A stretch of DNA of 52,767 bases from positions 1 to 52,767 of the forward strand of contig JAKLDS010000010.1 of the NCBI GenBank assembly GCA_022703375.1, given 5' to 3'. Below, one piece after another: positions 9,863-32,828 of this stretch. Below the pieces are notes generated by a model that searched no databases, was not told where the DNA came from, and saw nothing but the letters and a program-made list of their open reading frames with translations. A program made the translations under genes and the position numbers. This DNA comes from Deltaproteobacteria bacterium (GTDB lineage: Bacteria; Desulfobacterota; Syntrophia; Syntrophales; Smithellaceae). Each line of letters begins with the position of its first letter. The stretch's first letter is position 1.

Positions 9863-10903
9863 CTAAAGAATCAGCATGCAATCACCGTAGCTGTAAAAAA
9901 AATATTTTTTCTCAACCGCGCTCCGATAGGCATTTTTGACAGAATCGGTTCCGGCAAAAGCGCAAACAAGCAGAAACAATGACGATTTCGGCAAATGAAA
10001 ATTAGTGATAAGCCCGTCAATCCGTTTGAATTTATAGCCAGGATAGATAAAAATGGATGTCCAGCCCTTTTGCGGTTTAATCAGGCCGTTTTCCGCCGCC
10101 GCGCTCTCCAATGTTCTGACGGATGTCGTGCCCACGGCAATGACGCGCTTTGCTTGATTGATTAAGGCTGCTGTTTTTTCGCTTATCTCATAATATTCCT
10201 GTTCCATTTGATGGTCTTCCACTTGATCCGCCGTAATGGGCAGAAAGGTCCCGTAGCCGACATGCAGGGTTACCGGGGCTATACGCACTTCTTTTTGTGC
10301 CAGTTTTTGTATAACTTCCGGTGAAAAATGCAGTCCGGCCGTTGGAGCGGCAATGGAGCCGTCGTTTTTTGCGTAAATTGTCTGGTAGCGCTCACGATCA
10401 GCCATAATGTTTTTCGTCAGATTTTTTTGCCGGCGAATGTAGGGAGGCAGGGGAGCACGGCCATAAAGCCTGAGATATTCCAGAAAATCGCCGGGTGCGG
10501 TAAACTCCAGCAGCCATTTCTTGTCGGATATCCGGTCGAGAACCTTCACCTGCGTCTGGCCTTCCAGATAAATCGTGTCATTTTCCCGCAGTCTTTTCGC
10601 CGGTTTTAAGAGCGCTTCCCATGTTTGCGTCTCTCCTGTGCCTGATTTCTTTGTTAAAAGCAGGATATCGAACTGTGCGCCGGTTGCCTTGCGGCCGGAG
10701 ATTCTGGCCGGTATCACACGGGATTCATTGATTACCAGGACGTCGCCTTGCTGCAGGAATGAGGGCAGATCAAAGAAATTGAAGTCGGCGGCGCTGCCGG
10801 CCGCCCTGTTAAGCAGCATCATCCGGGAATGATCCCGCTGCGGACAGGGTTGCTGGGCGATGCGCTCCGCCGGCAAATCATATGAGAAATCTTTCAAATC
10901 CAT
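9863..10903 (-). CDS. queA: S-adenosylmethionine:tRNA ribosyltransferase-isomerase QueA
   Basis: Converts preQ1-tRNA to epoxyqueuosine-tRNA, using the ribosyl part of SAM. The 346-residue protein shows DFSYDLPAERIAQQP at the start, VINESRVIPARI, IAAPTAGLHFSPE, HVGYGTFLPI, and near the end GLITNFHLPKSSLFLLVCAF. I chose the ATG at 10903 because GGAG lies 9 nt upstream; a TTG three codons earlier abuts that site. It is the first gene of a seven-gene run ending with lepB. Its upstream region carries unusual tandem hairpin modules. Confidence 0.96.
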   Translation of the reverse strand: MDLKDFSYDLPAERIAQQPCPQRDHSRMMLLNRAAGSAADFNFFDLPSFLQQGDVLVINESRVIPARISGRKATGAQFDILLLTKKSGTGETQTWEALLKPAKRLRENDTIYLEGQTQVKVLDRISDKKWLLEFTAPGDFLEYLRLYGRAPLPPYIRRQKNLTKNIMADRERYQTIYAKNDGSIAAPTAGLHFSPEVIQKLAQKEVRIAPVTLHVGYGTFLPITADQVEDHQMEQEYYEISEKTAALINQAKRVIAVGTTSVRTLESAAAENGLIKPQKGWTSIFIYPGYKFKRIDGLITNFHLPKSSLFLLVCAFAGTDSVKNAYRSAVEKKYFFYSYGDCMLIL

Positions 10904-10943: not shown

Positions 10944-11126
10944 AATTATCCCGCTGTGACTTCGCTTCGGGGATAATTCCCCGTTTGGCAATGCAAACGG
11001 GATAATTTGCTCATCAAACTTTAGTGTGTTTCGCTTCTAAAGTTTGTGGCTCATTACGACCAGCAAATTCCAGTACACTTCGTCCGGCATTCGCCGGATT
11101 CCATTTCTGAAATTTGGGTCTCATTA
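10944..11126 (-). repeat. three tandem hairpin modules upstream of queA
   Basis: Read on the minus strand, three modules follow one another, each with an ATGAG-containing lead and then a 10-bp stem. Module 1 has lead TAATGAGACC (11117-11126) and arms 11107-11116/11064-11073, pairing fully with one G-U; its loop holds a small TCCGGC/GCCGGA hairpin. Module 2 has lead TAATGAGCCA and perfect arms CAAACTTTAG/CTAAAGTTTG (11037-11046/11015-11024). Module 3 has lead ATGAGC and perfect arms AATTATCCCG/CGGGATAATT (10998-11007/10944-10953), with a CAAACGGG hairpin nested inside. Stem sequences differ while pairing is kept. A related single copy lies at 31905-31945. Confidence 0.75.
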
Positions 11127-11177
11127 AAAGGTTGCGGCAAATAAGCAAAATTAAACGCTTATGTCAATTAATTAATA

Positions 11178-11363
11178 TTAAAGGCGTCCCAGATACAGCA
11201 GAAGCAGTCCCACGATTATTACGGAGATACCGGTAAACCGCAACGTTGCCTCGGGCAAGGCCACAATTTTCAACAGGTATGTTTTTATTTTTTCCGGGAA
11301 GAGAAAATAGGGCAGACCTTCAATTATCAAAACCATGCCTAAAACACAGAGAAAATATTTCAT
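11178..11363 (-). CDS. DUF2065 family small membrane protein
   Basis: A 61-residue protein with two membrane segments (about residues 1-20 and 40-59) separated by LFPEKIKTYLLKIVALPEATLRFTG, the arrangement of the DUF2065/YjeT family. The function is unknown. Its start codon overlaps the mazG stop by 4 bp, so the two are probably translated together. Confidence 0.8.
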   Translation of the reverse strand: MKYFLCVLGMVLIIEGLPYFLFPEKIKTYLLKIVALPEATLRFTGISVIIVGLLLLYLGRL

Positions 11364-13720: not shown

Positions 13721-13793
13721 TTGCCGTCAAAAATCAGGGTATTCAATACCTGCTTTAATAAAATTGAAAATCTTGGAAAGGAGGTTAGCTCAA

Positions 13794-14009
13794 ATGAAAA
13801 AAGTATTTGCCATTCTTCTTACCGTGCTTTTCTTAGCTTCATTATCAGTATTAGGCTGCAAAGAAGCACCCCAGCAGGAAGCAGCTCCGAAAGTTGAAGC
13901 GCCTGCAGCGGCACCGGCAGCAGCAACAGCGGCACCGGAAGCAGCAGCAACAGCAGCAACAGCGGCACCGGCAGCAGCAACAGCGGCACCGGCAGCACCT
14001 GCAAAATAA
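13794..14009 (+). CDS. small Ala/Pro/Thr-rich lipoprotein
   Basis: A 71-residue protein with an excellent AAAGGAGG site. MKKVFAILLTVLFLASLSVLGC is a lipoprotein signal peptide with a SVLGC lipobox (Cys22), giving a mature chain of about 50 residues. That chain is Lys/Glu-poor and consists mainly of repeated ATAAPAAA-type units (residues about 37-70). The DNA under the repeats is a tandem array of GCAGCAGCAACAGCGGCACC units, so copy number could vary by slippage. It has its own promoter and terminator. Such chains often act as abundant, flexible lipoproteins; no specific function can be given. Confidence 0.75.
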   Translation: MKKVFAILLTVLFLASLSVLGCKEAPQQEAAPKVEAPAAAPAAATAAPEAAATAATAAPAAATAAPAAPAK

Positions 14010-31816: not shown

Positions 31817-31904
31817 TGATCTACCTCTGATGACTTATTGGCTGCGCAGCGATTTTGCGAACTGTCCAGTAGCAAAAAAAGCGGAATATGACAAGAAACA
31901 ATTA

Positions 31905-31945
31905 TAGTGAGACCGCAACTTCAGAAGCGCAGCAAACTGAAATTG
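31905..31945 (+). repeat. single hairpin module, related to the array upstream of queA
   Basis: TAGTGAGACCG (31905-31915) is followed by arms CAACTTCAG (31916-31924) and CTGAAATTG (31937-31945), 8 of 9 pairs, around a 12-nt AAGCG loop. The lead, arm length, loop length and loop start resemble module 2 of the array at 10944-11126. It lies between kdsD and the crotonase gene, on the strand opposite to both. Confidence 0.6.
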
Positions 31946-32018
31946 GATGGTCGAACTATCCCGATAACGCAGTGTATCTGGACTATGGCCGGCATTCCTG
32001 ATTTAATGTTCATACCCG

Positions 32019-32828
32019 TTATTTTTTCCTGAGCGCGGCGGCGGTAATCGCCGCTTCGATTTCTTTAATATCCAGAAAAGCAGCGTTCCAGGAGGCAACA
32101 TAATCCATACCGTCCTGTGCGCTGTGGTTTTCCATGTACTTAAGAATCTTTTTCGTTCCCCGGACGACCGCCCCGGAATTTGCCGTAATTTCAGCAGCCA
32201 GAGCTATCGCTTTTTCCAGCAGGATTTCTCTGTCTTCATAAATTGCGCTGATTAACCCCATGCGCAGCGCCTCCGCGGCGTCAATATCCCTTCCCGTATA
32301 GGCCAGTAATTTCGTGTTGGCCTGTCCGATAATTCCCGGCAGCAGGTTTAACGAACCCATATCGGCAATGATGCTGATTTTAGTTTCACGCAGGGAGAAA
32401 ACAGCGTCGGTTGTTGCCAGACGCAAATCGCAGGCCGAAGCAATGTCCAGACCGGCGCCGATGCAATGCCGGTGAATGGCGGCAATATAAATCTTCCCGG
32501 AACGGGCAATCATACTGATTCCCTCCTGCATGGTTAAAATCAGCTGGAGCAGTTTTTGGCGGGCGGGAGCTGTGGCGGCGTTAAGGGCATCCTGATGATT
32601 AATGAACAATTCCATCACATCCAGCCCGACGCTGAAGGACTTGCCGAGGCCGGCAATTACTACGGCCAGAATTTCTCCGTCCTCCTCCAACTCACTGACG
32701 ACGGCGGGCAAATCCCGCCAGAATGGCCAGTTCATGGCGTTGAGTTTCTCCGGCCGGTTGAAATAAAGCACAGCCGTTTTTGCTGCGGGACGTTTTTCTA
32801 TCTGGAAAAAAGGATAGTCGCTGCTCAT
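32019..32828 (-). CDS. crotonase-family enzyme, dienoyl-CoA-isomerase type
   Basis: A 269-residue crotonase. The oxyanion-hole parts are SFSVGLD and HCIGAGLDIASACD. Asp128, Glu148 and Asp156 have the same spacing (20 and 8) as the Asp/Glu/Asp set of rat ECH1, delta3,5-delta2,4-dienoyl-CoA isomerase, which enoyl-CoA hydratases do not have. It therefore probably shifts double bonds in dienoyl-CoA rather than hydrating. In a syntrophic fatty- or aromatic-acid degrader this fits beta-oxidation of unsaturated acyl-CoA. It has an AAAGGAGC site and its own promoter. Confidence 0.8.
   Translation of the reverse strand: MSSDYPFFQIEKRPAAKTAVLYFNRPEKLNAMNWPFWRDLPAVVSELEEDGEILAVVIAGLGKSFSVGLDVMELFINHQDALNAATAPARQKLLQLILTMQEGISMIARSGKIYIAAIHRHCIGAGLDIASACDLRLATTDAVFSLRETKISIIADMGSLNLLPGIIGQANTKLLAYTGRDIDAAEALRMGLISAIYEDREILLEKAIALAAEITANSGAVVRGTKKILKYMENHSAQDGMDYVASWNAAFLDIKEIEAAITAAALRKK

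Follow-up and report, generated by a model that had tools for sequence, protein, structure and literature searches.

The tandem hairpins at positions 10944-11126 of the window (the whole stretch of DNA that was analysed, 52,767 nucleotides) are probably one copy of a dispersed, protein-free and non-autonomous family of palindromic repeats, REP-like or MITE-like in character and specific to the Smithellaceae. We confirmed that the three hairpins are real and far stronger than chance: the RNA fold of the array region lies well below that of shuffled sequences (z = −5.6), each module also folds strongly as single DNA (Table 1), and all three stand on the minus strand. A tandem hairpin array had been proposed from the sequence in an earlier note, which placed it just upstream of queA. 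The array lies about 40 nucleotides from the likely queA ATG, on the same strand as queA. Read on the minus strand, 11126-10944 runs TAATGAGACC-CAAATTTCAG..CTGGAATTTG-CT-GGTCG (module A1), followed by module A2, TAATGAGCCA-CAAACTTTAG..CTAAAGTTTG..AGCAAATTA, and then by module B, whose second stem can also be read as about 10 bp, AATTATCCC(C)G/CGGGATAATT.

Three equivalent modules, each with an ATGAG lead and a 10-bp stem containing one G-U pair in all, had been described in the earlier note. The ATGAG strings at 11125-11121 and 11055-11051 are indeed homologous, both belonging to TAATGA-G leads, but the third (11014-11010) consists of the bulge and outer 3′ arm of A2. Module B is therefore a different hairpin, and the true repeats are A1 and A2. 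The 10-bp stem was found, with a single T.G pair in A1, but it is the inner part of a larger unit that adds a 4-bp outer stem, a 2-nucleotide 3′ bulge and a TAAT/ATTA helix. A1 has no downstream ATTA because A2 abuts it directly. The loop sequence said to be common to two modules is AAGCGAA (reverse complement), which occurs in A2 and B.

Table 1. Features of the queA array, its flanks and the second element in the window
Feature	Position	Strand	Remarks
queA (PF02547)	9863..10903	-	Likely ATG at 10903 from relatives; listed ORF begins TTG 10912
Whole array	10944..11126	-	Two type-A modules, then type-B double hairpin; between putative queA promoter and queA
Module A1	11057..11126	-	R2 covariance model 34.5 bits; DNA fold −14.1 kcal/mol, z −3.9
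A1 lead TAATGA; outer stem GACC/GGTC	11120-11117 / 11061-11058	-	
A1 inner stem CAAATTTCAG/CTGGAATTTG	11116-11107 / 11073-11064	-	One T.G pair
A1 CT bulge	11063-11062	-	
Secondary hairpin TCCGGC/GCCGGA in A1 loop	11083..11098	-	Same insert in two other copies, own genome
Module A2	11003..11056	-	R2 covariance model 64.9 bits; DNA fold z −4.9
A2 lead TAAT, can pair with ATTA	11056-11053 / 11006-11003	-	Across GA/AA mismatch
A2 inner stem CAAACTTTAG/CTAAAGTTTG	11046-11037 / 11024-11015	-	
Module B, double hairpin	10944..11001	-	DNA fold z −4.0
B first hairpin CCCGTTTG/CAAACGGG	11001-10994 / 10987-10980	-	
B second stem AATTATCCC/GGGATAATT	10978-10970 / 10952-10944	-	AAGCGAA loop
queA promoter-like TTGACA-N17-TTATTT	11139..11167	-	Conserved in relatives; by-eye comparison with L135, L137, L140, L141
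Second element, type-A, lead TAGT/ACTA	31902..32019 (A module 31902-31961)	+	Model match
Right-end motif TTCATACCCGT of second element	32009-32019	+	

Comparison of many copies shows that the type-A unit is a long imperfect hairpin, composed of a TAAT/ATTA-type outer helix, a tandem GA/GA mismatch, a 4-bp stem with a 2-nucleotide 3′ bulge, a 10-bp stem and a 12-nucleotide loop. The first alignment of copies was partly selected by a palindrome requirement; covariation was scored on alignment A2 (59 rows from the window's own genome, including one short antisense row), which, like alignment A3 from the genome G015, was collected with a model in which no pairing was assigned to the lead. In alignment A2, 94.3% of cells were paired and changes on both sides were seen at 16 of the 18 base pairs, values that no shuffle reached; when the pairing partner was slid, only 20 to 46% of cells were paired (38 to 46% for a slide of one column). 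Copies from G015, an independent species aligned with the same model, were paired at 94.9%, and their lead helix at 97.3%, two of the four lead pairs showing double changes. Pairing is kept through double changes in both species; the compensating differences may reflect selection on structure, as the note proposed, but hairpin-templated correction could also yield covariation among copies.

In the window's genome, the lead and its downstream partner are exactly complementary in 47 of 54 copies, in six sequence versions: TAAT/ATTA (32 copies), TAGT/ACTA (9), CAGT/ACTG (3), and CAAT/ATTG, TCGT/ACGA and TTGT/ACAA (one each). Between this helix and the stem, GA stands opposite GA in 45 of the 54. 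Because the lead pairs with a downstream ATTA-type partner, it is not a single-stranded tag, and the "conserved lead" is one side of a helix beside a tandem G.A mismatch. Sheared tandem G.A pairing is stable in a pyrimidine-GA-purine context, and pairing of this kind may form within these repeats. The loop is 12 nucleotides long in 47 of the 59 own-genome rows, and most loops of other lengths carry an inserted hairpin, for example TCCGGCGAATGCCGGA in module A1.

A blastn search with the array found 19 places in its own genome. With a covariance model (R1) built from 20 copies, we obtained 74 matches there at E<1 and 64 at E≤2.1e-4 (about 70 copies), 114 in G015 and at least 147 in a further relative, G005. 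The left-end motif GTGARACTCCWAT occurs 198 times in G005 and the right-end motif 131 times, each against 0 for the reversed control. Within the family, 29 of the 35 genomes searched carried copies, with counts from 0 to more than 90 per genome; in the other six, the covariance-model search detected none. Outside the family, the repeat was seen in one of 24 genomes sampled from the order's other families, as a single match, and in a phylum-wide search of 395 genomes (246 genera) all five genomes with the repeat belonged to the Smithellaceae. The repeat family is thus essentially confined to the Smithellaceae, where a genome that carries it holds from tens up to about two hundred copies. Copy number differs from 0 to about 90 even among species of one genus (genomes G001-G034, genera g3 and g5), as within g3, where G002 has 0 copies and G012 has 85. 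The genome-wide covariance search suggested in the earlier note returned many further copies across the family, while at the array's place upstream of queA there was no match in 15 syntenic relatives. Rfam contained no matching family at E≤1, searches for plasmid and phage carriers of the array gave no match, and we found no published account of these repeats within the open-access literature.

The modules are commonly assembled into mosaics, a B-like hairpin trailing the A module in many copies. Mosaics in G005 span about 90 to 420 bp, mostly 200 to 300, and typically start ..TTATT-GTGAAACTCC and finish TTCATACCCGTGA-TT; the right end of the second element in the window (Table 1) is nearly equal to this right end. 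Loops in G005 hold AACCT..AGGTCAC hairpins, which nest up to four deep (L269). In L269, L261 and L263 the arrangement is AACCT(AATAACCT(AACCACCT(GATACCCT..AGGGCACAAG)AGGTGGCAAG)..)AGGTCACAAG, as if fresh hairpins repeatedly insert at one apical site. A sub-type with a CAGTGA lead (L120, L123, L047 and L130; G000) is set in a larger repeated context, GATAACGAGGCG.. / ..CAAAGTTAGCCGAAGAAAGCG. Elsewhere in the window, at 13764-14009, we noted a short ORF with a lipoprotein-like signal followed by an Ala/Pro/Thr repeat tail, a case of low-complexity coding.

The gene order mazG - DUF2065 - queA is conserved among syntenic loci. The DUF2065 gene (61 amino acids, 11178-11363) lies between mazG and queA in all that were examined. 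In most syntenic relatives queA is preceded by a short gap containing TTGACA-N17-TTATTT and a T-tract, and at 15 syntenic queA loci there was no model match at the position of the array. In the window, a CCTTTT tract downstream of this putative promoter immediately precedes the array, which appears to be an insertion between the conserved promoter and queA, one that would give queA a structured leader of roughly 190 nucleotides. Its exact boundaries are uncertain because the relatives with an empty site are at most 66% identical in QueA. Two loci, L134 and L139, carry copies near queA at other positions and offer cleaner comparisons. L134 reads ..CCTTTATTT/GTGAAACTCC...ACCCGTGA/TTTTGC.. where L135 has CCTTTACTTTTGC, and L139 reads ..AAATTATT/GTGAGACTC...ACCCGTGA/TTTTTAGCG.. 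where L141 has AAATTATTTTTTGCG (slashes mark the element's apparent ends). At least two copies are thus clean insertions into T-tracts that left no target-site duplication. A TTTAAT duplication had been considered at the queA site; the two cleaner sites show none. In L134 and L135 the interval from DUF2065 to queA holds another repeat, a palindromic sequence similar to the context of the CAGTGA-lead sub-type, which suggests a further composite repeat family.

We then considered other explanations. One is that the repeats are kept mainly for a host function, for example as DNA sites for nucleoid proteins or gyrase (as with the BIMEs of Escherichia coli) or as stabilisers or terminators at mRNA ends, and that they were mobile only long ago. 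Gene context, assigned by a simple ORF heuristic, agrees with this in part: the copies are mostly intergenic, several directly adjoin stop codons or terminator T-tracts, and old, diverged copies keep their structure through paired changes. Starts at such places are, however, also as expected from T-rich targets. Copies lie in either orientation (in the window's genome, 25/19 for upstream and 27/20 for downstream genes), although elements in G005 lean antisense to the downstream gene (7/21). This want of a consistent orientation argues for an element acting at the DNA level, and a strand-specific RNA role was set aside on the same ground. Since position at queA is not conserved in relatives and six family genomes have no copy, we consider a host function unlikely.

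A second possibility is a true RAYT-driven REP, in which a Y1 (RAYT) transposase encoded in these genomes, and since lost or inactivated in some of them, would act on the hairpins. The earlier note had suspected a REP-like element whose lead is recognised by such an enzyme; the dispersed repeat was borne out, with about 70 copies in its own genome and a family-wide presence, but the recognised lead was not, the lead being base-paired and Y1 number being uncorrelated with copy number. Y1 genes (PF01797) are indeed frequent, occurring in 38 of 51 family genomes, with five in the window's own genome. Over 35 genomes, however, Y1 number did not track copy number (rho 0.06, p 0.73): G012 and G027, with about 70 to 85 copies, had no Y1 relative by Pfam and protein searches, whereas G004, G009, G014 and G030 carry Y1 genes and 0 copies. 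In G015 the Pfam search found none and the protein search one divergent Y1 relative (C2:25284, 36% over 84 amino acids). An element lies within about 1.5 kb of 3 of 32 Y1 loci, close to chance (about 1.7 expected for 27 of these loci). No autonomous, gene-bearing copy was found: only ordinary genes lie between close element pairs in G005 and G015, and there was none at the Y1 loci examined.

The best case for a RAYT comes from one clade (L096, L311, L312 and L333, in G005, G446, G003 and, as a pseudogene, G444), which has elements within about 0.06 to 1 kb in 4 of 4 genomes. G005, which has a RAYT of this clade, holds the most copies counted, more alike than those of G015, and insertion into T-rich DNA without duplication resembles IS200/IS605. 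Yet L312, the clearest member, is flanked by its own perfect AATTAGGGACAGCGC inverted repeats, and most RAYT genes inspected likewise bear their own GGGGAC/GGGGTC-type or GGGACAGCGCCC inverted repeats. Flanks of this sort were seen in G000 (C42:19725, C86:10662, C24:61 and C24:29691; L010-L013), G003 (L312) and G031 (L104), with AGGGGTCAAATCTTTA, GGGGACGTACTTAAA and CCGGGGACATAACAC as examples; they match the TIRYT arrangement, in which a RAYT is flanked by inverted repeats (Di Nocera et al. 2013, PMC3733652). The GTAG tag is absent as well. A RAYT was thus tried as mobiliser by co-occurrence, proximity and flanks, and failed on no correlation, near-chance proximity and inverted repeats of its own; the enzyme that moved the repeats is probably not the RAYT first suspected, and we regard a RAYT-driven REP as quite unlikely. 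Least credible, and in our view very improbable, is that the array is a riboswitch or attenuator, a structured leader RNA conserved for queA and the queuosine/sec operon. This strongly folding copy did land in the queA 5′ UTR, on the transcribed strand behind a conserved promoter-like sequence. Yet none of the 15 syntenic relatives has a model match at that place, most showing a short leader in its stead; modules of this type recur at about 70 places in the genome, and Rfam has no match. The relatives thus refute a conserved leader function, whereas a purely local effect on queA is conceivable.

We therefore return to a mobile, non-autonomous repeat family. Its copies would have been mobilised in trans while folded as single-stranded DNA, the responsible enzyme recognising the bulged hairpin and joining the hairpin's ends to T-rich targets in a manner resembling the handling of IS200/IS605 ends and REPs. 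Over at least 100 nucleotides the best pairs of copies are 94% identical in G005 and 84% in G015; the lower value indicates that the spread is older in G015. No copy has been caught moving, so we infer mobility from the scattered distribution and the empty sites. The window's genome may hold mostly old copies, whose structure may be maintained by selection for recognition, by a mobiliser or by a DNA- or RNA-binding host protein, or by repair templated on the hairpin. If this copy affects queA expression, that would be a by-product of the landing site. We advance only tentatively the bolder idea of a new superfamily among bacterial mobile elements, made up of single-strand hairpins, served by a mobiliser of its own, recognised through the fully paired hairpin, the GA/GA mismatch and the 3′ bulge, and growing by loop-nested insertion (up to four levels in G005) into mosaics of 200 to 420 bp at hundreds of places.

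These observations add a family of palindromic repeats that is abundant, restricted taxonomically and unlike GTAG or CGTC REPs in its anatomy, and an example of hairpins nesting within hairpins. The 35 genomes, with 0 to well over 100 copies, provide a natural test of repeat spread without a matching RAYT, and variation in copy number within a genus is a natural experiment for finding the mobiliser. In Smithella annotation, single copies risk being mistaken for a riboswitch or terminator of the adjacent gene.

Set against known systems, the array differs from a queA (preQ1) riboswitch or leader RNA, as conservation upstream of queA and an Rfam match are both absent, and from classical DDE-type MITEs, as a target-site duplication is absent at both empty sites (L134/L135 and L139/L141). 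TIR/TIRYT elements (PMC3733652) occur in the same genomes but are separate, their GGGGAC-like RAYT-flanking repeats being unrelated to the hairpin. Mitochondrial double-hairpin and repetitive hairpin-forming elements of fungi and sponges may be similar as palindromes dispersed among genes, some of them inserted in one another, whereas the Smithellaceae repeats are bacterial, longer and of a defined, family-wide anatomy. IS200/IS605 terminal hairpins and derived miniature elements share the bulged hairpins, and the two empty sites, though too few to define a target, are consistent with their insertion 3′ of a short fixed T-rich sequence without duplication. The Smithellaceae repeats differ in that neither a cognate Y1 transposase nor a gene-bearing copy turned up in the clusters and at the Y1 loci that we inspected, and in their hundreds of mosaic copies. 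The CGTC repeats are likewise widespread palindromes without an identified transposase, but none of their features (an unpaired CGTC tag, 8-9-bp stems, 4-5-nucleotide loops and a CCA-like tail; Di Nocera et al. 2013, PMC3733652) fits a repeat with 10+4+4-bp stems and a 12-nucleotide loop in 47 of 59 copies. GTAG REPs and BIMEs are alike in their short, bulged, imperfect hairpins, high copy number, mostly intergenic position and mosaics. Their hairpin is preceded on its 5′ side by a GTAG tetranucleotide that is conserved and unpaired, in contrast to the paired TARTGA/CAGTGA lead and tandem GA/GA of the Smithellaceae repeat, whose units are 54 to 60 nucleotides and longer; here RAYT association is absent, and the local RAYTs are flanked by other inverted repeats rather than by the same repeat, with the exception of the one clade that has elements nearby in 4 of 4 cases. 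On the features tested, the family is thus REP-like in kind but outside the GTAG and CGTC REPs, and we take it as a novel variant of the dispersed bacterial palindromes.
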